Positions 8,771-24,198 of a stretch of DNA of 33,393 nt are shown piece by piece. Each line of letters starts with the position of its first letter. Within the stretch, counting starts at the first letter, position 1. The DNA comes from a virus. The notes beneath the pieces are model-generated. The model saw only the letters and a list, made by a program, of their open reading frames with translations. It ran no database searches and was not told the DNA's origin. Position numbers and translations under genes: made by a program. Location of the stretch: positions 1 to 33,393 of IMG/VR virus record IMGVR_UViG_3300035701_000161. One strand, written 5' to 3'.

Positions 8771-9265
8771 GTGCAGGAAACCAAACAGCGATCGCGGTTC
8801 GTTCTCGAACCCGCCGTCACGCGCAAGGTGAACTACTCGGTCGCTCCCGTCAATCAGGGACTCGGCCGTTTCGCTGAACTCGTGCTCACCCTCAGAGTCA
8901 CCGCCGCGGAACGCGACACTGGTGATGAAACCTACGACATCTACATCACTACGGAAAACCGCGCGGGAGAGAAGTGGGACCTGGTTCACTTCCCGCAAGT
9001 CGCCGCAACTGGCGCGAAGACGTTTGTCGCCCGGCTGCGGTCGGATCTCCTTGCACAACAGGTGACGACGGCAGTACCGGGCGTAGCCTCGAACGAATCG
9101 GCTACGCTGCGCACCGAGACCGGCGGCGCGAATCAGGGAACGAAGACGCTCGGCGCTGGGGTGGCGCGTCACGGTCCATGGGGCGACAAGATCGGGTACG
9201 AGCTCGTCGTGGCGGGGACGTTGGCGACGGGCATTGGGTACTCGATCCACGGAGAAGCGAGGTAG
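8771..9265 (+). CDS. Small beta-rich virion-type protein, copy B of tandem pair
   Basis: 164 residues, GTG start one base after the previous stop. It aligns with the preceding protein along its whole length (for example ELVLTLRVTAAE, DETYDIYITTENRAGEKWDLVHF, HGPWGDKIGYELVVAG). A 30-base stretch is still identical at the DNA level (8667-8696 and 9166-9195). The pair is therefore a tandem duplication that has diverged. Differences concentrate in the middle (residues about 75-125). The product probably occupies the same or an adjacent position in the virion as copy A; a heteromeric surface protein is one possibility. Confidence 0.55.
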   Translation: MQETKQRSRFVLEPAVTRKVNYSVAPVNQGLGRFAELVLTLRVTAAERDTGDETYDIYITTENRAGEKWDLVHFPQVAATGAKTFVARLRSDLLAQQVTTAVPGVASNESATLRTETGGANQGTKTLGAGVARHGPWGDKIGYELVVAGTLATGIGYSIHGEAR

Positions 9266-9272
9266 GGGGCCC

Positions 9273-10061
9273 GTGGGCCTGACCGACAATCTCGTTTCGT
9301 ACTGGAAACTCGACGAGGCTTCCGACGGGAGCGGCGCGGTCACTCGCGTCGACTCGAAGGCATCCAACAACCTCACCGACAACAACACTACAGCGAGCGC
9401 GGCGGGTGTCATCGGCAACGGGGCCGACTTTGAGGCGAGCAACAGTGAAAGCCTGAGCATTGCGGATGCTGCGCAGACCGGATTGGAGCCTGGTAGTGGC
9501 GATTTCTCGATTTCTTTTTGGTTCAAGCCCGAGAGCCAGCCGCCGATATGGAGCGAGTATCAGCTCTTTAGCAAATGGGACAACCCCAGCGAAGCGAGAT
9601 CGTTTTATCTTTCTTATAACTGGGCAAATGGAGGGACAGACAAACGACTAAATCTGTCGGTGTCCGCAGATGGCAGCGGCAGTACTAACAACCACAGTTT
9701 GGCTCAAACTCTCGTCAATGGGACGATGTACCACATTGTGTTTGCCTGGGATGCTTCCCTTCACTCACTCGAAATTTTCGTGAATGGCTCGTCTATCGGT
9801 ACAGACGCTTCCGGGACGCTGACATCTATTTACAACGGCACAGCGCCCGTTGTCATTGGTGGACCGGGGGCGGATGGAATAGTAGACGAGGTTGGTTACT
9901 GGTCCCGACTTCTGACGAGCGCTGAGGTCACGAGTTTGTACAACAGCGGCGCGGGATTGGCGTATCCGTTCGGCGCTGCCGCCTATGTGGAGACCTACGG
10001 GGGTCCGTTGAGCGGAATGCTCAGGGGCGAACTGCGCGGAATGATGAAGAGGGTAGCGTGA
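9273..10061 (+). CDS. LamG/concanavalin-fold surface protein
   Basis: 262 residues from GTG 9273, preceded by AGGTAGGGGG. An in-frame ATG at 9234 exists but would overlap the previous gene by 32 nt, so the GTG is preferred. The N-terminus LTDNLVSYWKLDEASDGSGA is the classic entry into a LamG_3-type jelly-roll ('L-V-x-Y-W-x-L-D-E'). It continues through DFSISFWFKPESQ, YHIVFAWDAS, LEIFVNGSSIGTDASG and GIVDEVGYWSRLLTSAEV, all canonical elements of that family. This fold binds carbohydrate or caps phage fibres. A short basic tail follows (GMLRGELRGMMKRVA). It overlaps the glycosyltransferase gene by GTGA. Likely a virion surface or host-glycan-binding protein. The segment from about 9,500 to 9,850 looks slightly less GC-rich than its surroundings by eye. 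Confidence 0.75.
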   Translation: MGLTDNLVSYWKLDEASDGSGAVTRVDSKASNNLTDNNTTASAAGVIGNGADFEASNSESLSIADAAQTGLEPGSGDFSISFWFKPESQPPIWSEYQLFSKWDNPSEARSFYLSYNWANGGTDKRLNLSVSADGSGSTNNHSLAQTLVNGTMYHIVFAWDASLHSLEIFVNGSSIGTDASGTLTSIYNGTAPVVIGGPGADGIVDEVGYWSRLLTSAEVTSLYNSGAGLAYPFGAAAYVETYGGPLSGMLRGELRGMMKRVA

Positions 10062-10990
10062 AGATCCAGCACCTCATGAACAAGGAGCCCAGCGGGTTGT
10101 CCACGACCACACTGGAGCTCGCCAAGTACGAGGAATTGGCTGGCCATAGCGTCGTGGTGCGGCAACCTGGCGGGGGCCTGCTCTACGGTCACGGAAACGG
10201 CTACGACGTGACGGCCGCGCATCACCAACTGGACCAGACCCAGTATCACGACGGCAAGCCGAAATTCCTCTGGACACATGGGGAACCGCTCAGTAGTGTC
10301 GGCAACGGGATCTCGATGCGGGCCACGGTCGAGATGGCGCCGATATGCTCCGGGTTCATTTCGATGCGGAAGGAAGAGATCCCGCTTTGGAAGGCGGTGC
10401 ATCCGAACACCTACCTCGTCACCAAGGGGATCGACCTCGACGTCTATAAACCGTTGGCCGGGATCACGGAGCGCCTCAGTGGTGAGCCGGCCGTCCTCTA
10501 TTACGAGAACATCCGGGCACAGCGCAACCCGCTCTATTGGCTCGTCGCCATGCAGAAGGTCCATGCGAAATTCCCCAACGCCCGCTTCCACCTCTACAAC
10601 GTCTCCGACAAAAAGATGGTCGAGACGTTTCAGGCGTTGAACACGCACGCGCATTGGTGGCCGTTCCTGCGGACGATCAGCGGCCCGGTGGCAACGCCGG
10701 AGGAAGTCAACCTCTTGCTGAACCGCGTGGACATCGTAGTGAGTGCGTTGCACCCCCTGTATGCCCGTAGCATCGAAGCCTTCGGCGCGGGTAAGGCGTT
10801 TATCTCGCCAGGGTACAGGGAGTTCGAGTATCCGTGGACATGCGAGTACGACGTGGATTCGATGGCAGAAGTCTTGATTCGGTGCTTCGAGAACTACGAC
10901 AAGATCAACTACCGGAAGTGGTCCGAAGAGCACCATGACGTTCGGAACACTGTGGCGGAGTCGGTGGCCATCTATCAGAGGTTCTTATGA
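10058..10990 (+). CDS. GT-B fold glycosyltransferase (GT4-like)
   Basis: 310 residues, GTG overlapping the LamG gene stop by 4 nt. The N-terminal Rossmann-like half begins KIQHLMNKEPSGLSTTTLEL and includes ELAGHSVVV, the usual acceptor-side start of GT-B enzymes ('S-G-x-x-x-x-x-x-E-L...G-H-x-V'). The second half carries PAVLYYENIRAQRNPLYWL, NARFHLYNVSD and, near residue 235-250, YARSIEAFGAGKAFISPG, matching the GT4 donor-site pattern (E-A-x-G-x-P/K-x-I-x). It would transfer a sugar from a nucleotide donor. It is the first gene of a three-gene modification cassette embedded between virion genes, suggesting modification of a virion component rather than of host lipopolysaccharide. Confidence 0.7.
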   Translation: MKIQHLMNKEPSGLSTTTLELAKYEELAGHSVVVRQPGGGLLYGHGNGYDVTAAHHQLDQTQYHDGKPKFLWTHGEPLSSVGNGISMRATVEMAPICSGFISMRKEEIPLWKAVHPNTYLVTKGIDLDVYKPLAGITERLSGEPAVLYYENIRAQRNPLYWLVAMQKVHAKFPNARFHLYNVSDKKMVETFQALNTHAHWWPFLRTISGPVATPEEVNLLLNRVDIVVSALHPLYARSIEAFGAGKAFISPGYREFEYPWTCEYDVDSMAEVLIRCFENYDKINYRKWSEEHHDVRNTVAESVAIYQRFL

Positions 10991-11562
10991 ACATCTGCGT
11001 GGCGGCCTGGTACTACCACAAGTCCCTGATGCAGACGCTTCAGAACTGTTATCCGGTGTGTTGGGTCTGCCATCGTCCACCGCCAGCGGCAGAAATAGAT
11101 TTATTTGACCACAGTTTTAACAACATCCCCAACGTCGGCCTGGAGTTCGGGTGCTACGACTGGTATTTGAAGAACCGCTGGAACGGCGGGTCCGTCCTGT
11201 TCACCCATGACGACAACGAAATCACCGAAGAGGCCCTGGATCAAATCGCCCTGATCCCGCACGACCAGTGCTTTCTTTTCCCGAGTTTGGAGGTTGCGGA
11301 AGCCAACGGCAAGGCACATGGGCGCGCGTTCTTCTGCTCGGAGAAGTTGCTGCGCCGATTGAAGGGCGATGGAGGATTCTGGTACAACGAAGCCCCTGAG
11401 ACGAGCGTAGCGATTCCGGCGACGAGTGCAGAGGCTCCCAACTACCACAATGCGGGCATCCTGACGTTCCTCGCCTGGCTGAAGTCTTTGCCGGCGGAGT
11501 TCACAGCAAATCAAGTTGCCGTCGTGCCTGGCCTAAAGACGGGGTATCGAGGGAGGTTATGA
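10987..11562 (+). CDS. Glycosyltransferase-like protein (GT-A type candidate)
   Basis: 191 residues, in ATGA overlap with the GT-B gene. Features: an N-terminal strand (NICVAAWYYHKSLMQTL), a W-x-x-H/C-rich segment, and the stretch NVGLEFGCYDWYLKNRW followed by VLFTHDDNEITEEALDQ. The D-D-N after a hydrophobic strand looks like the metal-binding D-x-D of GT-A glycosyltransferases, and the 'E-F-G-x-Y-x-W-Y' arrangement resembles rhamnan-synthesis-type transferases. Length is shorter than typical GT-A enzymes (about 230-280 aa), so it may be a compact or incomplete version. The call leans on this motif and on its place between a GT-B enzyme and a methyltransferase. Confidence 0.45.
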   Translation: MNICVAAWYYHKSLMQTLQNCYPVCWVCHRPPPAAEIDLFDHSFNNIPNVGLEFGCYDWYLKNRWNGGSVLFTHDDNEITEEALDQIALIPHDQCFLFPSLEVAEANGKAHGRAFFCSEKLLRRLKGDGGFWYNEAPETSVAIPATSAEAPNYHNAGILTFLAWLKSLPAEFTANQVAVVPGLKTGYRGRL

Positions 11563-12071
11563 CACGGCTCAATCTTTGTTGCGGCCCGAGTATCATCGAG
11601 GGTTTCGTGAACATCGACGCCTGGCCAGGCCCCGGCGTGGACGTGGTGAGCGATGTCCGTGAACTCCAGTACCCCCAGGCCTCCGTGGATGAAGTCGTGA
11701 TGTTCCACTGCATCGAGCACTTCACATTGGACGACGCCTGCGCCCTGATCCGCAAGGTGTTCGGCTGGCTGAAACCCGGCGGACACCTGATCGTGGAGGG
11801 GCCGGACGTGTTCAAGGCAGTGAAGAACACCACGACCGGCGAGTTCGAAGCGATCCGCGGGATCTTTGGCGACATCGTTGAACTGCGGAACGGCAAGGGC
11901 AACTACCAGCATCTGTGGGGCTGGACGGGCTCGCTCATGCAACAGGAAATGACCTCCGCGGGCTACAATGTCGGCCCGGTAGAGGACGGGCTGTCACACG
12001 CAGACAAGGGCTGGCGGGACTACCGAGTAGTGGGATTCAAGCCGGAGAAGGAGGCGGTTCATGGCGTTTAA
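11559..12071 (+). CDS. Class I SAM-dependent methyltransferase
   Basis: 170 residues, ATGA overlap with the previous gene. Motif I is LNLCCGPSIIEGFVNID (residues 4-20), followed by the acidic strand DVVSDVRELQYP, the post-II element VDEVVMFHCIEHF and the motif-III region LIRKVFGWLKPGGHLIVEGPD. This order matches small methyltransferase_11/COG4627-like enzymes ('L-N-L-G-C-G ... G-F-V-N-V-D ... H-V-L-E-H ... L-K-P-G-G'). The usual 'L-G-C-G' is L-C-C-G here. Substrate is unknown. After two glycosyltransferase-type genes a sugar O-methyltransferase capping a glycan is a reasonable inference. Its end overlaps the fibre gene by 11 nt. Confidence 0.75.
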   Translation: MTRLNLCCGPSIIEGFVNIDAWPGPGVDVVSDVRELQYPQASVDEVVMFHCIEHFTLDDACALIRKVFGWLKPGGHLIVEGPDVFKAVKNTTTGEFEAIRGIFGDIVELRNGKGNYQHLWGWTGSLMQQEMTSAGYNVGPVEDGLSHADKGWRDYRVVGFKPEKEAVHGV

Positions 12072-14574
12072 GAAGAACACCGGGAACCAGATCCTCTTCA
12101 TTCTCACCAAAAGCGGCGACAACTCGCACGCCGCGGGCGCCACAGTGTCGCAGATCACGGCGGCCGGCCCGAGTTACGTTGGAGTGAACAACGGTTCCGC
12201 GGCCGTCGCCACCAAAGGGACGATTTCGCGGGCGGCGTCGTTGGTGAAGGCCGGTGTGTTTCGCCAATCATTGAAGGCCGCAGAGTGCAACTTCGACATG
12301 GGCATGTATATGTTCACGGCCACCAGTTGCACTCTCCAGTTGATCCCGATCACGTTTGAAGGGAACACGCCGGGCGAGACGTATTCCCGAACGCTTCTGA
12401 CTGCTTCGCTGGCCTCGGACGCTCAGTCCATGGCGGCAGCCGCGTATTCTCGGGCGTTCCTCGCCGCCAGTGCCGCCAGGCAGGGGAGTTCGAGAGCCAT
12501 CCTGACGCAATCACTCGCTTCCGATGCCGTCTCGCAGGCGATCTTGGCCACTAGCGCCGCCAGGGCGGCAAACTCCCGTGTTCTACTTACCGCCTCACTC
12601 GCCTCGGATGCCGTCTCTCAGTGCATTCTTGCAACCTCAGCCGCGCGTGCAGGCCACTCACATGCTGCGATTGCCGATACTCAGTCCACGAAAGCCTATT
12701 CTCGGGCCTTGTTGACCGCCTCGCTCGCTAGCGATACATGGTCGCTGGTTTCGGATGTCCACAGCCTCGTGGTGTCCACGAAATCGCAGGCTACTCTTGG
12801 GACCTCAGCGGCGCGTGCCGGGCATTCGCACGCGACCATTGGTGACAGTGCCGCGCGCGCAGCCAATTCCCGGGTTCTCCTAACGGCTTCCTTGGCCTCG
12901 GATACTCACAGTCTGGCGGTCCAGATTCGCAGTGCCGCCAGAAGCGCCGCCGCCTATGCGCTTCTTACACAATCGTTGGCCTCTGACGCCCATTCCCAGG
13001 CGGCCAGGGCCTACTCTCGTGCGCTTCTGACGGCTTCCCTCGCTTCTGACGCGCAGTCGATGGCGGTGCAAACGTACAGCCGCGTTCTTCTGAACGCTTC
13101 CCTTGCCTCCGATGCACAGTCAATGGCTGCGGCTGCGTATTCTCGGGCCTTCCTGGCGCACAGCGCGGCAAAACAGGGCAATTCCCGCGCCATCCTTACG
13201 CAGTCGCTCGCCTCGGATGCCGTCTCTCAGTGCGTCCTAGCGACGTCCGCCGCTAGACAGGCGAACTCTCGGGCGTTACTCGTCCAGTCCCTTGCCAGCG
13301 ACGCAGTCAGTCAAGCGATTCTGGCGACCTCAGCCGCCAGGCAAGCCAACTCCCGGGCCCTTGTTGTGCAATCCCTGGCGAGTGACGCGCAGTCTCAGGC
13401 GGCTAGGGCCTACTCCGCAGCCAAGGTTGCCGGAGGTGTGACCGCTTCTCAGGTCTGGTACCACGTGCGCGGGACGGCAACCCTCAGCGCAGCAGAACAG
13501 GCAAACTCCAGGGCGCTTGTGATTCAGTCGCTTGCTTCGGATACCCACTCACAAGCCGCGCGTACCTATTCTCATGTGCTCTTGAATCAGTCTCTCGCCT
13601 CCGACGCGCAAAGCGCCGCGGCCGCTGCTTACTCTCGGGCCTTCCTTGCGGCCAGTGCAGCCCGAGAAGCCAGCTCAAGGGCGCTTGCAGTTCAATCGCT
13701 TGCGTCTGATGCCCAGAGCCAGGCGGCATTGGCCACCTCCGCCGCGCGCCAAGCGAACTCGCGAGCGCTGCTCGTCCAATCTCTTGCCAGTGACGCCCAC
13801 AGCCAAGCTGCACGGACGTACTCCGCGGTAAAGTCAGCAGCCGCTGGTGTGACCGCTTCTCAGGTCTGGTACCACGTGCGCGGGACGGCAACCCTCAGCG
13901 CAGCAGAACAGGCAAACTCCAGGGCGCTTGTGATTCAGTCGCTTGCTTCGGATACCCACTCACAAGCCGCGCGTACCTATTCTCATGTGCTCTTGAATCA
14001 GTCTCTCGCCTCCGACGCGCAAAGCGCCGCGGCCGCTGCTTACTCTCGGGCCTTCCTTGCGGCCAGTGCAGCCCGAGAAGCCAGCTCAAGGGCGCTTGCA
14101 GTTCAATCGCTTGCGTCTGATGCCCAGAGCCAGGCGGCATTGGCCACCTCCGCCGCGCGCCAAGCGAACTCGCGAGCGCTGCTCGTCCAATCTCTTGCCA
14201 GTGACGCCCACAGCCAAGCTGCACGGACCTACTCGGCGGTGGACCTGGTGGCGGGTTACGTCGATACGGAAGTGGCCGCAATCAAGGCCAAGACCGACCG
14301 CTTGCCGGCAGCCCCGGCGGCGACGGGCGATATTCCTACGGCTGCCGAGATCGCCGCGGCGGTCGGATCGCGGGTGCCGGGTCTGGAGTCCTACGCCCCG
14401 CTGGGCCAAATTCCGACTTACGACCAGTTCCTGTTCATGATTTGGGCCGCCCTGGCCCAGTACGGCGTCAGGGGAACTTCCCTGGTGGCACAGAAACTCG
14501 ACGGCGCTACCGAGGCGATGCAGTTCCGCCTGGACGACGACCAGACACCGACATCGAGGGTGAGGAGCGCATGA
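12061..14574 (+). CDS. Giant serine-heptad fibre protein
   Basis: 837 residues; ATG with AAGGAGG seven bases upstream. Residues 1-108 form a beta-rich N-terminal domain (FKKNTGNQILFILTKSG; LKAAECNFDMGMYMFTATS) of the type that attaches fibres to virions. From Ser109 to residue 458 the protein is 50 consecutive 7-residue units, nearly all starting with Ser, such as SRALLTQ, SLASDAV, SQAILAT and SAARQAN. Positions 3 and 6 are mostly Ala/Val/Thr, so an Ala-core coiled coil with an outward-facing Ser is plausible. A 24-residue insert (GVTASQVWYHVRG...) then interrupts the heptads, and a 137-residue block is exactly duplicated. The C-terminus (about 740-837) is non-repetitive and ends LDDDQTPTSRVRSA, like trimerisation tips of other fibres. 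Probably a long tail or head fibre shaft. Confidence 0.75.
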   Translation: MAFKKNTGNQILFILTKSGDNSHAAGATVSQITAAGPSYVGVNNGSAAVATKGTISRAASLVKAGVFRQSLKAAECNFDMGMYMFTATSCTLQLIPITFEGNTPGETYSRTLLTASLASDAQSMAAAAYSRAFLAASAARQGSSRAILTQSLASDAVSQAILATSAARAANSRVLLTASLASDAVSQCILATSAARAGHSHAAIADTQSTKAYSRALLTASLASDTWSLVSDVHSLVVSTKSQATLGTSAARAGHSHATIGDSAARAANSRVLLTASLASDTHSLAVQIRSAARSAAAYALLTQSLASDAHSQAARAYSRALLTASLASDAQSMAVQTYSRVLLNASLASDAQSMAAAAYSRAFLAHSAAKQGNSRAILTQSLASDAVSQCVLATSAARQANSRALLVQSLASDAVSQAILATSAARQANSRALVVQSLASDAQSQAARAYSAAKVAGGVTASQVWYHVRGTATLSAAEQANSRALVIQSLASDTHSQAARTYSHVLLNQSLASDAQSAAAAAYSRAFLAASAAREASSRALAVQSLASDAQSQAALATSAARQANSRALLVQSLASDAHSQAARTYSAVKSAAAGVTASQVWYHVRGTATLSAAEQANSRALVIQSLASDTHSQAARTYSHVLLNQSLASDAQSAAAAAYSRAFLAASAAREASSRALAVQSLASDAQSQAALATSAARQANSRALLVQSLASDAHSQAARTYSAVDLVAGYVDTEVAAIKAKTDRLPAAPAATGDIPTAAEIAAAVGSRVPGLESYAPLGQIPTYDQFLFMIWAALAQYGVRGTSLVAQKLDGATEAMQFRLDDDQTPTSRVRSA
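12385..13434 (+). repeat. Fifty uninterrupted serine-led heptads
   Basis: Codons for residues 109-458 of the fibre are exactly 350 residues, i.e. 50 units of 21 bases without a single phase slip. Forty-eight of 50 units start with a Ser codon; the exceptions are TQSTKAY (unit 15) and AYALLTQ (unit 28). Units fall into four recurrent types that often cycle in the order SRALLxx, SLASDAx, SQAILAT, SAARQAN, giving a 28-residue higher-order repeat. DNA copies have diverged in codon choice, so selection appears to act on the protein. Confidence 0.9.
13435..13817. repeat. Direct repeat copy 1 in fibre gene (383 bp exact)
   Basis: Identical base for base to 13846-14228, offset 411 bp (137 codons, in frame). 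It encodes the 24-residue insert GVTASQVWYHVRGTATL... plus most of the following heptads. Identity ends abruptly on both sides. Confidence 0.95.
13846..14228. repeat. Direct repeat copy 2 in fibre gene (383 bp exact)
   Basis: Second exact copy of 13435-13817. Perfect identity, compared with the diverged codons of the upstream heptads, marks it as a very recent duplication (or gene conversion) lengthening the shaft by 137 residues. Confidence 0.95.
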
Positions 14575-14855
14575 TCGGTCCCCTGATCACCCGAGGCCTC
14601 GGTTATGCGGTGGCCTACCTGCTCACGGGAGGCCTGTTTCCGGCCGCGCAGGCCATCCCGCATGACGTCCCCGGCGTGTTCAGGGCCACTTCGGCCGGAA
14701 TGGCCCGCATCCTGGCCACGGCGGCGAGCGGAACGCCCCGCCTGGTCATAGGCATGGATACGGCGCAACCGCGCACTTTCGAGACGTGTGCCGGCGCCCC
14801 GGCGCGTGTTTTCGGTTCGGCGTCGACGTCTGCCACACCGAGGATCCTAAAATGA
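14571..14855 (+). CDS. Small hypothetical protein (94 aa)
   Basis: 94 residues, ATGA overlap with the fibre gene and GAGGAG just upstream. The N-terminus (LITRGLGYAVAYLLTGGLFP) is hydrophobic and could be a membrane or hydrophobic-core segment. The remainder is Ala/Thr/Ser-rich, ending FGSASTSATPRILK. It overlaps the next gene by ATGA. Coding status rests on the tight overlaps at both ends and the ribosome-binding site. Function unknown; a small virion or assembly protein is likely from context. Confidence 0.5.
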   Translation: MIGPLITRGLGYAVAYLLTGGLFPAAQAIPHDVPGVFRATSAGMARILATAASGTPRLVIGMDTAQPRTFETCAGAPARVFGSASTSATPRILK

Positions 14856-15733
14856 GTGCAACCTACCTCACCTTCGGGGAAATCCGGTTCCAATGCCGCA
14901 AGCGTTTCGGCGGAGTAGATCCGGATATCCTCGACTCGCTGATCAACGAACGTTACAGGCGAGTACTTCGCCGGGGGGACTGGCAGCGGTTGCGGGTCCA
15001 GGCGGTCCTCCAGACCGTTGCACCGTACGAGACGGGCACGGTGGCCGTCGTGGCGGGCAGTCAAAATTTGACACTCGCCGATGGCGCCTGGACCGGCGCC
15101 ATGACGGGCCGCGCCATCCGAATCGCCCTCCGCGAGGAGTACTACCAGTTCACGTTTCTGACGGAGTTGACCGGGCAACTCGACCGGCCCTACGAGGGCG
15201 AGGACGACGCCGCGGCCGCCTACTCGATCTGGCAGAGCGTCTACGTGCTGCCGGCGGATCTGTTCCAGCTTCACTCGATGCGGGTCCTCGGATCGCCCGA
15301 GGATCTCGACCAGGTCACTCAGGAGGCCCTGGACGAGCGCGACGCGAACCGCAGCGCCAGCGGGCAACCTTTCTGTTACGCGCCTCACATGGACAACGCC
15401 TCTACCCCGCCCCGCGAACAGGTGGAGCTGTGGCCGGTTCCGGACGAGGTCCTGGCGATACCCTTCTGGCACACGCAAGACCCGGAATTGTTTTCGGCTT
15501 CCGCAACGTCCAATTTCATCGCGCCCTGGCTCAGTCCGGCGGCCATCTACGACGGCGTCGAGGCGGACGTGCGCCGGCTGGATGGGAAACTGGCCGGGGC
15601 GCAGGCGGCTGAGGCGATGTTCCTTACGCACTTGAGCGAGATGTTCGGGGCCGAAGCGCGGCGCAGGGGTCCGCAGCCGATCAAGATGCACCCGATATAC
15701 ACCCGGCACAACCGGCGGAGGTGGCAAAGATGA
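14852..15733 (+). CDS. Head-tail adaptor-like protein (first of three)
   Basis: 293 residues from ATG 14852 (ATGA overlap); an upstream in-frame extension is not needed. N-terminal helices with DILDSLINERYRRVLRRGDW match the opening of podovirus adaptor or tail-completion proteins, in which a helical bundle docks on the portal. A beta-rich middle (ETGTVAVVAGSQNLTLADGAW) follows, then a WQSVYVLPADLFQLHSMRVL segment and a C-terminal basic helix (AEARRRGPQPIKM). The same general pattern ('...Y-x-L-P-x-D-...') is shared in weaker form with 17751-18554 and 18544-19164. Likely a portal-ring adaptor or fibre-anchoring protein. Placement after the fibre and before the spike supports a tail-assembly role. 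Confidence 0.5.
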   Translation: MSATYLTFGEIRFQCRKRFGGVDPDILDSLINERYRRVLRRGDWQRLRVQAVLQTVAPYETGTVAVVAGSQNLTLADGAWTGAMTGRAIRIALREEYYQFTFLTELTGQLDRPYEGEDDAAAAYSIWQSVYVLPADLFQLHSMRVLGSPEDLDQVTQEALDERDANRSASGQPFCYAPHMDNASTPPREQVELWPVPDEVLAIPFWHTQDPELFSASATSNFIAPWLSPAAIYDGVEADVRRLDGKLAGAQAAEAMFLTHLSEMFGAEARRRGPQPIKMHPIYTRHNRRRWQR

Positions 15734-17754
15734 GGATTAGAATGCGATTCCTGTTGGGTCTCTTGGCGGCGGTGGCGGCCTGGGGCCAAAACACAGCGAA
15801 GTTTCCGGCCGCGGTGCCGACCTACAGCGACCTGGGCGTGGTCGCGAACCGCGCCGCGACGACGCTGTTGACGGGCGTGAGCGCGTCGGCGACTTCGCTG
15901 CCCGTGGCTTCGGGCACACAGTTCGGCGCGCCGGGCTTCGTCACGATCGACAACGAAGTCATCGCGATCTGCGCCAAGGCGGGAAACGCGCTGACGGTGG
16001 GGTACAAGGCCTGCCCGAACATCGACGGCCGCGGCTGGGACGCGAGTTCGGCCCTCTCGCACCTGGCCGGCCGACCCGTCCAGCAGAGAATTGTGGCCTG
16101 GACGCCGAACCAGTTGGCGGCGGAGGTAATCGCGATCGCCACCAAACTGCACAACGAAATGGTGAGTGTAACAGACTTCGGGGCGGACCCAACTGACGAT
16201 GAGGACGACACAGAGGCCTTTCAAGCGGCGCTGGACCTGGGCAACTACTACGCCGTGAATGTTCCCTGTACGGGAACCGGACGTTTTCTCATTACTGAGA
16301 CCCTCCGCGTGTCCGGCACTGGAGTCAAGGTCCTCGGACAGGGCCAAAGGTGCGCCTTCATCGAGTGGGCACCTGACGAGGCGGGCAAGCCGCTGTTTCT
16401 CATCCAGTCGCTCTATAGCAATCAGATCGGGCAGAACAAGATCTCCGGTCTATCAATTAGAGGTTCGGGTGACTTGGTCAAGCTCGGCATCAGCATGGTG
16501 GACGCGGCCGAGATAGAGGTCACGGATATCGCCCTGAGCGGAATCACCGACTCAACCAAAGGCTCAACGGGGATTCGGGTGGCTGGCAGGCAGAGCATCA
16601 ACATCCATGACGTGCTAGTGGACGCCGACAAGCCGATGGTGATTGGGGAAGATCCAAACACCCCCGGTTGGGGCGCAGACCACATGCACGTCTGGAACTG
16701 GTATTCGATCGCCAACGGCAATCCCCACTTGACGGTGGAAGACGGAACGGCCATCAGTAATATGACGTGGGACGGGTACCAAGCATGGGCCAAGGGCACC
16801 TACGGGGTATATTGGGTGACCCCCAACACCTACTACGCGTCCCTCATGATCGCGTTCCATAATGTGCGATTTGAACAGGTAGAGACCACTGCCGGATGGA
16901 TTGCGTACTTTGCGCCGAACAGTATACAGGACCTACTCATAGACGGGATGTACGGCGGGATCACCGGCGACCCGGTGCCGGGGCTAAGCAGCAACGGATA
17001 CTACTTCAGAAACATCACCAACGGTGTGATGATCCGGTCCTGTTACGCCGGATACCCAACCTTCGGGGGAAGTTATGTTGCGATCAACGCTGACGGATCC
17101 GCGGCGATGATGCTAATTGCTATGGCATGGACCCGCGAAGTCACGAAGACCCTCACGGGGTTCACGGGCCTTGAACTCAGCGCTGACGGTTCCATTATTT
17201 GGCATACGCCAACTGTCTCCATTGGGAACGACGAGGCCGGCATGAACCTGCACACGTACCACTTGAAAATTGGACACGACGTTGCCTCTTCCCACTTCAT
17301 GTCAATCCCGAACAACCATATATTGGCTGCCGTAAACGGTGCGGGAGACGAGACTGTCGGCATAGTGTCTCTGGGTACTGATGACGTCGTGACGATTGCC
17401 CCGACTGGAGCTCGCGTACGATTCGGTACACTTTCGACGGTTCAATTTGGCTACGACCAGTACGTCGCGCCAATCTCCGCATACAACTCCAAGACCGCCA
17501 GCCTGAACGCGTCGGCCCCTGCATCCGTGCCCGGATGTTCCGGCGACCTGGGGGTCTCGATCGATTCGGCCGTTGGAGACGTGGCCACCGTCGCGGCTCC
17601 GGTCGCTCTTCCCGCCGGGTTCAGTCTTTCGGTCTATGTCGGCGCGGCGAACTCCGCCTTCATTCGCTGGTGCCAACTCTCGGGAGAACCGGCAGATCCA
17701 GACGGCGCCGGCGGAGATTATCGCGTTACGGTTGTACGGCACCCAACGGAATGA
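15730..17754 (+). CDS. Tail spike with pectate-lyase-type beta-helix and secretion-like N-terminus
   Basis: 674 residues from ATG 15730, in ATGA overlap; GTG 15721 is an in-frame alternative. Residues 1-20 (MRIRMRFLLGLLAAVAAWGQ) look exactly like a Sec signal peptide: basic n-region, Leu/Ala core, A-W-G-Q end. Residues about 25-140 (SASATSLPVASGTQFGAPGF, IDNEVIAI, LTVGYKACPNIDGRGWDASS) form a short beta-domain common at the base of phage spikes. At about 150 VSVTDFGADPTDDEDDTEAF opens a pectate-lyase_3-like right-handed beta-helix, which continues with rung-like strands to about 520. The C-terminal about 90 residues are beta-rich (SGDLGVSIDSAVGDVATVAA). Probably binds or degrades a host polysaccharide. 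Catalytic residues cannot be identified by eye. Confidence 0.7.
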   Translation: MRIRMRFLLGLLAAVAAWGQNTAKFPAAVPTYSDLGVVANRAATTLLTGVSASATSLPVASGTQFGAPGFVTIDNEVIAICAKAGNALTVGYKACPNIDGRGWDASSALSHLAGRPVQQRIVAWTPNQLAAEVIAIATKLHNEMVSVTDFGADPTDDEDDTEAFQAALDLGNYYAVNVPCTGTGRFLITETLRVSGTGVKVLGQGQRCAFIEWAPDEAGKPLFLIQSLYSNQIGQNKISGLSIRGSGDLVKLGISMVDAAEIEVTDIALSGITDSTKGSTGIRVAGRQSINIHDVLVDADKPMVIGEDPNTPGWGADHMHVWNWYSIANGNPHLTVEDGTAISNMTWDGYQAWAKGTYGVYWVTPNTYYASLMIAFHNVRFEQVETTAGWIAYFAPNSIQDLLIDGMYGGITGDPVPGLSSNGYYFRNITNGVMIRSCYAGYPTFGGSYVAINADGSAAMMLIAMAWTREVTKTLTGFTGLELSADGSIIWHTPTVSIGNDEAGMNLHTYHLKIGHDVASSHFMSIPNNHILAAVNGAGDETVGIVSLGTDDVVTIAPTGARVRFGTLSTVQFGYDQYVAPISAYNSKTASLNASAPASVPGCSGDLGVSIDSAVGDVATVAAPVALPAGFSLSVYVGAANSAFIRWCQLSGEPADPDGAGGDYRVTVVRHPTE

Positions 17755-23538: not shown

Positions 23539-24198
23539 ATGGCCTGCGCCTTACCGCTCAAAGTGGCGATTCCCCCGGCAGGAGCCGACGGGTTCCGTCT
23601 GGAGAGTCCATTTCCCGAGTACGCGCTGCCGCGCGTCTGGACGTGGATCGGGGCTTTTCGCGACCGCGTCGCCGATGACTACTCGCCGAAAACGCTCGAC
23701 GAGTTCATGGCGCAATGGGAAGAGCGAAGGTCAATCCGGCGAACCTGGGGCGTCTGGCGCCGTGACGATCTGGGCGGTCTGGTGATATTCGAGGCCTGGC
23801 AACCCGGCGTCGGCACTTCGCACGCGGTCTTCAAACGTAGTTTTTGGGGCCGGGCCACGACCAGGCGAGCCCTGATGCTGGTCTACCGCGAGATCTTTGA
23901 CAGCGGCGTCCGCAAGGTGTGCAGCTTCCCCTTTAAGGGCAATAATGCCATCATCGCGCTGGGGAAAAGTCTGGGGGCCAAGACCGAAGGCATTCTACGC
24001 GGCCAAACCCTGCGCCACGGGCAACCCGTGGACCTGGTTATATTGAGTCTGTTCAAGGAGGATTTCGATGCCGTTTATAGTCCCGTTTCTCCCGGCGCTG
24101 ATAGGGGCGGGGTCCTCGATGGCGAGCGGGGCGCTGTCCAACCGGGGGTCGAGCACCGCCCCGACGCTGAGCCCCGAGTTACAGCCATTACAGACTGA
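23539..24198 (+). CDS. GNAT-family acetyltransferase-like phage protein
   Basis: 219 residues, ATG two bases after the fibre stop. The core (about residues 70-176) has the GNAT order: GLVIFEAWQPG (strand), HAVFKRSFWGRATTRRALML (loop and helix that bind acetyl-CoA), VRKVCSFPFKGNNAIIALGK and LGAKTEGILRG, ending in PVDLVILSLFKEDF. 'N-x-x-x-I-x-x-x-x-x-L-G-A-x-x-E-G' is characteristic. The usual end of such proteins is near KEDF; the last 43 residues instead run through the start of the next gene in another frame and look unrelated to the family. Phage GNATs near tail genes are common, with target unknown. Over-extension at the 3' end suggests loss of an original stop. Confidence 0.65.
   Translation: MACALPLKVAIPPAGADGFRLESPFPEYALPRVWTWIGAFRDRVADDYSPKTLDEFMAQWEERRSIRRTWGVWRRDDLGGLVIFEAWQPGVGTSHAVFKRSFWGRATTRRALMLVYREIFDSGVRKVCSFPFKGNNAIIALGKSLGAKTEGILRGQTLRHGQPVDLVILSLFKEDFDAVYSPVSPGADRGGVLDGERGAVQPGVEHRPDAEPRVTAITD

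Follow-up and report, generated by a model that had tools for sequence, protein, structure and literature searches.

Conserved linkage of a serine-heptad fibre gene with glycosyltransferase and methyltransferase genes in uncultured phages

Introduction

An Ala-rich-core coiled coil is found in honeybee silk, an insect heterotetramer for which we know of no glycosyltransferase and no fixed Ser at every seventh residue. As far as the silk is known to us, the phage fibre described here is similar to it in its predicted coiled coil with an Ala-rich core.

Among phage proteins, the PCoil domains of collagen-like prophage fibres consist of Ala/Ser heptads and are trimeric and alpha-helical: PCoil fragments were helical by CD, their lengths vary in multiples of seven, and the trimer was shown for an EHEC prophage example (PMC3368898). 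Phage lambda orf-401 (Stf) carries 16 Ser/Ala heptad units. Our fibre resembles PCoil and lambda Stf in that long Ser-led heptads with an Ala-rich core, predicted to be helical, follow an N-terminal domain.

Regularly spaced serines are also known as acceptors of sugars. One study reports that the staphylococcal GT-B enzymes SdgA and SdgB are encoded beside their targets and O-glycosylate the serines of Ser-Asp repeats, and SdgB binds its acceptor, a long Ser-Asp repeat stalk, via an inserted domain (PMC8561734). Like SdgA/SdgB with ClfA and SdrC-E, the locus studied here places a GT-B enzyme gene beside a protein with many regular serines. Finally, another paper proposes that mycobacteriophage virions are glycosylated by phage-encoded glycosyltransferases, e.g. 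on the Maravista capsid (PMC11256854), and a phage-encoded glycosyltransferase is likewise suggested here to modify a virion protein.

Results

The fibre gene and its heptad array

The window analysed is the whole virus record IMGVR_UViG_3300035701_000161 (33 kb), whose ORFs weakly match families of portal, major head and internal virion proteins. The features of the locus are listed in Table 1.

Table 1. Features of the fibre locus, with positions in the window.
Feature	Position	Strand	Evidence
Glycosyltransferase P0003, GT-B fold (predicted), GT4-like, 310 aa	10058..10990	+	AF2 model, Foldseek, VIA
P0004, 191 aa, no family assigned	10987..11562	+	Invariant FGxYDxYLK and HDD
SAM-dependent methyltransferase P0005, 170 aa	11559..12071	+	Pfam Methyltransf_11, 1.4e-7
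Ser-heptad fibre protein, 837 aa	12061..14574	+	Translation; N-terminal domain matches L002, L004
N-terminal domain, residues 1-108	12061..12384	+	37% identity to N-terminal domain of SD-type relative L138
First block: 50 unbroken heptads, 48 led by Ser (residues 109-458)	12385..13434	+	Translation
Register-breaking insert GVTASQVWYHVRGTATL	13435..13485	+	Equivalents: 6 places in L002, 3 in L004
Second block: 17 heptads, all Ser-led (residues 476-594)	13486..13842	+	Translation
Insert GVTASQVWYHVRGTATL, second copy	13843..13896	+	Translation
Third block: 17 heptads, all Ser-led (residues 613-731)	13897..14253	+	Translation
Tandem duplication, 411 bp, 99% identity	13435..14240	+	Sequence comparison of copies
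Fibre C-terminal part	14254..14571	+	GYVDTEVAAIKAKTD..LPA segment common to UOF79503.1

The 50 heptads in register claimed in a preliminary description of this DNA were recovered exactly, T207 and A298 being the two units not led by Ser. The Ser count by heptad phase over residues 109-458 was 48, 0, 1, 12, 2, 0 and 1, and the best single phase never exceeded 22 Ser in 20,000 shuffles of the same residues. Positions 3 and 6 were occupied by small residues, as had also been claimed: within the 50 units, position 3 is Ala in 82%, and position 6 is Ala in 54%, Thr in 24% and Gly in 12%. The composition of position 5 in the window fibre was L34 D24 A12 Q12. Codons for the same residue differed in 65-69% of cases between heptads of the same class, which bears out the synonymous divergence reported earlier, and both types of Ser codon were used (39 TCN and 9 AGY); thus, this old 50-heptad array is held at the protein level.

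The array continues past position 13434, where the preliminary description had ended it, in the two further 17-heptad blocks, and comprises 82 Ser-led heptads in runs of at least four per fibre chain. The insert is 17-18 residues long and changes the heptad phase after residue 458. The third block together with its insert is the 411-bp tandem copy of the second, the first 383 of 383 bases being identical; this may be an artefact of assembly, or else the fibre has recently grown in frame by 137 residues. The N-terminal domain is probably the virion anchor. At the other end, the fibre has a C-terminal segment of a kind known from phage fibres, and phage MW202621 has the GYVDTEVAAIKAKTD..LPA stretch of it in its hypothetical protein UOF79503.1.

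Relatives of the fibre

Searches of the fibre against Pfam, PHROGs, NCBIfam and PDB sequences returned nothing useful, and its N-terminal domain had no above-threshold Pfam match. A match of the fibre to VasI (0.0084) was rejected, as it lay under its cut-off and probably arose from composition. A tape-measure role was also rejected: it was suggested by a weak PHROG match (0.008) for one relative only, and both the C-terminal segment and the adjoining pectate-lyase-like spike count against it. The whole fibre as query yielded no relatives in the sequence collections, whereas single cycles of the repeat, a query proposed in the preliminary description, did, as did the N-terminal domain and alignments. 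We found no confirmed relatives of either the repeat cycle or the glycosyltransferase in the GTDB genomes; in the phage collection, the fibre was matched only over 35-42 C-terminal residues and the glycosyltransferase had no match.

The close relatives were on two contigs, L002 (1148 aa) and L004 (605 aa). Their N-terminal domains are 82-86% identical to that of the window fibre over the same 108 residues and are followed by Ser-led heptads in differing numbers, among which the insert occurs 3-6 times. Repeats of the pattern S-x-Phi-S-D-Phi-x, hereafter SD-type, were found in a broader set (L008, L130-L139 and L163), and SD dipeptides are common to this fibre family and the SdgA/SdgB targets.

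Register, core and predicted fold of the shaft

We calculated the mean hydrophobic moment with Ser set to position 1 and a helical turn of 3.5 residues, and compared it with within-heptad shuffles. The moment pointed to 170 degrees in the window fibre (82 heptads), to 179 degrees in L002 and L004 together (142 heptads) and to 201 degrees in the SD-type relatives (306 heptads, after removal of one duplicate and one partial contig), i.e. roughly opposite Ser, and exceeded the shuffles in all three sets (p about 0.0015 or less). Positions 3 and 6 of the window fibre carried no charged residue (0 of 164), compared with 70 of 328 at its remaining variable positions (Fisher 3e-14). In the SD-type relatives, L, I, V, M or F occupied 71% of positions 3 and 55% of positions 6, and these repeats appear to have a canonical a/d core at 3/6 with Ser at f. 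The placement of Ser at f and of the core at 3/6, which the preliminary description had proposed, is therefore supported by homologues. The window fibre differs from them mainly in its Ala/Thr core.

A single-chain AlphaFold2 model of the fibre, built without an alignment, had all its long elements helical, with a pLDDT of 40; the structure prediction suggested earlier thus gave a helix, as anticipated, at low confidence. Its quality was too poor for a fold search, and we dropped it as a query. Taking the heptad pattern together with the published relatives, the shaft is very likely alpha-helical and probably a trimer, and it is likely that the Ser row faces outward.

Comparison with lambda-type arrays

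We scanned viral contigs with a TC/WS pattern for long stretches with Ser at every seventh residue and obtained at least 120 matches. Many of these were Ser tracts of low complexity or probably antisense frames; at least about a dozen were lambda-type SATAAATSATNAATSETNAA arrays, with up to 50 units among the matches listed, and arrays of 43-50 units were present among them. In particular, L055, L086, L016, L049, L051 and L122 carried lambda-type Ser-Ala arrays of 18-50 units with a near-invariant Ala5. Ser/Ala heptad arrays as a class are thus not very unusual in viral contigs. The existence of the lambda-type arrays reduces the novelty of the repeat by itself, and the preliminary description went too far in calling Ser-rich shafts of small-residue heptads unusual, although other parts of its structural reading, namely the heptad periodicity, the 3/6 core and the opposite Ser, found support.

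Ser-led heptads in long register are common to PCoil and the window fibre (48 of 50 units). However, Ser1 and Ala5 are both near-invariant in lambda-type arrays (Ala5 at 90-100% in most, 78% at the lowest), while the window fibre has no fixed Ala5 and carries its small residues at positions 3 and 6 instead. Ser1 lies on the core side in lambda-type arrays, with a moment of 74-109 degrees, and opposite the core in the window family. Moreover, no member of the window's glycosyltransferase family was found in any of eight lambda-type Ser-heptad records, several of them short. The two are distinct Ser-heptad shaft designs with different registers.

Genes upstream of the fibre

The frames between 10058 and 12071 overlap and the fibre starts at 12061, which suggests joint expression. 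An ORF at 9234-10061 that overlaps the start of the glycosyltransferase gene encodes a LamG-like lectin domain (Laminin_G_3, 5.7e-16). On the 3' side of the fibre, the ORF at 15721-17754 is a pectate-lyase-like tailspike candidate (PF12708 at 2.8e-5, just under cut-off; PHROG pre-neck appendage at 3e-8).

The P0003 family is 51-91% identical among members found beside these Ser-heptad fibres. Its Pfam signal was weak (best Glyco_transf_4, 0.0026, in one relative), and we built an AF2 model on an alignment of ten relatives (pLDDT 64.7, pTM 0.66). This model matched GT-B glycosyltransferases over its full length in Foldseek (PimA, E 1.4e-8, probability 1.00), and BshA with a Z of 17.8 and an rmsd of 3.7 over 276 aligned residues in VIA; SdgB, TarM and GtfA were lower in the lists of fold matches, in which the T4 alpha-glucosyltransferase was also present. 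The model thus points to a GT-B fold glycosyltransferase of GT4-like type. The EX7E motif of GT4 is incomplete in this family, the second Glu being invariant and the first replaced by H, Y, F or D (20 sequences). Since the first Glu is lacking, enzymatic activity is likely but not assured. We found no Pfam match to DUF1975 in the P0003 family, and its 310 aa leave little room for that domain.

P0005 matched Methyltransf_11 with 32.4 bits (cut-off 21.2), and 14 of 15 aligned methyltransferases, including that of the window, matched Methyltransf_23 at E 0.01 or better, some of them under the cut-off. For P0004, which lies between the glycosyltransferase and the methyltransferase in the window group, no family match was obtained and a PDB profile search for a second glycosyltransferase gave no usable match; that it is a second transferase is a guess. 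A P0004-like protein adjoins the fibre in L157 (11605-12327), where both methyltransferase types, this protein and the glycosyltransferase precede the fibre (9001-15515), and this locus is possibly a link between two gene arrangements. Finally, an ORF in the structural region (23539-24198) is Acyl-CoA N-acyltransferase-like (PHROG 4470, 6.4e-6), and its product might acetylate a sugar.

Linkage of fibre, glycosyltransferase and methyltransferase

The glycosyltransferase-linked Ser-heptad fibre family comprised L002, L004, L130-L158 and L163. Starting from the fibre, we found the glycosyltransferase upstream in all loci retrieved by fibre searches in which that side of the gene is covered, and it was present as well on a contig (G016) found by the fibre motif DFQSRVPK alone. 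Starting from the glycosyltransferase, a same-strand Ser-heptad ORF was located 0.56-2.4 kb downstream in all 19 loci with downstream sequence; these loci and the window make 14 groups at 90% identity. Nine of the contigs (6 groups) were new to the fibre searches, so for them the test is not circular. The weakest linked fibres (L143/L144 and L157) had 10-12 heptads in runs of at least four, and none of 183 other ORFs longer than 250 aa in the glycosyltransferase loci had 8 or more such heptads. A methyltransferase lay between the glycosyltransferase and the fibre in 15 out of 15 loci read. The linkage of these three genes is conserved.

The portal and major head proteins of the window were matched in 1 of 15 records (25-30% identity), its internal virion protein weakly in 1 of 16, and Terminase_6N was matched in 5 of 16; several records are short or fragments, which makes absent head-gene matches weak evidence, but six of the 16 exceed 50 kb. 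From these comparisons, the three-gene set appears to be common to unlike phage backbones. We found no paper on this linkage among open-licence papers, and it is the linkage that constitutes the new point.

Discussion

The preliminary description assigned no function to the Ser row, and it overlooked the adjoining glycosyltransferase-methyltransferase pair. We propose that the fibre is alpha-helical, probably trimeric, and that its exposed Ser row accepts phage-encoded O-glycosylation, a reading that we regard as evenly poised; for the narrower claim that the fibre is the acceptor of this glycosyltransferase, we lean slightly in favour. The shaft would be a long left-handed alpha-helical coiled coil with Ala/Thr at core positions 3/6, and its outward f position would be Ser in nearly every heptad. 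The GT-B glycosyltransferase of the same overlapping gene set would put sugars on the Ser row and the methyltransferase would cap them by methylation, resulting in a rod whose heptads almost all bear a glycan (82 sites per chain). At 0.15 nm per residue, some 350 helical residues would span about 52 nm, with one Ser per about 1.05 nm along each chain. We infer glycosylation, its acceptor site and a benefit, which would perhaps be stiffness, protease resistance, or masking or binding at the host surface. More tentatively, a mobile cassette could be common to diverse uncultured phages, its dedicated GT-B enzyme and methyltransferase O-glycosylating the f positions of a coiled coil with methylated sugars at steps of about 1 nm.

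The nearest working parallel to this proposal is the SdgA/SdgB system, which differs from it in several respects. Its targets are Ser-Asp dipeptide repeat proteins of the bacterial surface, while an ordered coiled coil is predicted for the fibre. The SdgB-type enzyme has about 500 aa, including a DUF1975 acceptor domain, compared with the 310 aa of P0003. Its acceptor is proven (PMC8561734) and no methyltransferase is known to us there, whereas our acceptor is proposed and a methyltransferase adjoins. For Maravista, a capsid protein is the suggested target, and the abstract mentions no Ser-heptad fibre (PMC11256854).

A GT-B fold alone does not tell the acceptor, the methyltransferase could have another substrate, and the linkage may stem from joint transfer of a host-range cassette. 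The shaft might be a plain coil of the PCoil kind, in which Ser and Ala are kept for solubility, for packing of the helices and for changing length by seven residues at a time, and the sugar enzymes act elsewhere. PCoil itself, with trimeric helical Ala/Ser heptads and lengths differing by multiples of seven, is a precedent (PMC3368898), and Ser-led heptads are frequent in viral contigs; however, the register of the window family is unlike the lambda type (170-201 vs 74-109 degrees), and it would be left unexplained why Ser is invariant at f and why the fibre and one glycosyltransferase family are reciprocally linked, and we consider a plain coil unlikely.

It is still more doubtful that the enzymes modify host surface polysaccharide or phage DNA, and that they accompany the fibre in a cassette for host range or superinfection exclusion. 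GT-B enzymes do all these things, the T4 alpha-glucosyltransferase is in the fold list, and the region also codes for a LamG protein and a pectate-lyase-like spike. Nevertheless, the enzyme genes overlap inside the virion structural region, and the factor common to the unlike phages, among the genes compared, is the Ser-heptad fibre. Finally, a disordered stalk, a beta fold or a side-by-side two-faced helix with Ser as packing residue would agree with the small residues on both helix faces (position 1 vs 3/6) and with the low-confidence model, yet is very improbable given the helical long elements of that model, the canonical hydrophobic 3/6 core of the SD-type relatives and the helical PCoil fragments seen by CD (PMC3368898).

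The outward positions of coiled coils are normally among the most variable. Glycosylation of the Ser row, if true, would explain why Ser is kept at such a position over hundreds of heptads, and would join phage fibre architecture to phage-encoded sugar chemistry. It would place Ser-repeat glycosylation on an ordered, virion-borne coiled coil instead of a flexible stalk, and glycosylated shafts could alter adsorption, stability in soil or water, and lectin recognition. The glycosyltransferase, methyltransferase and fibre form a compact, testable gene set, and even without the sugar link, register separates two classes of Ser-heptad shafts that are otherwise easily lumped.
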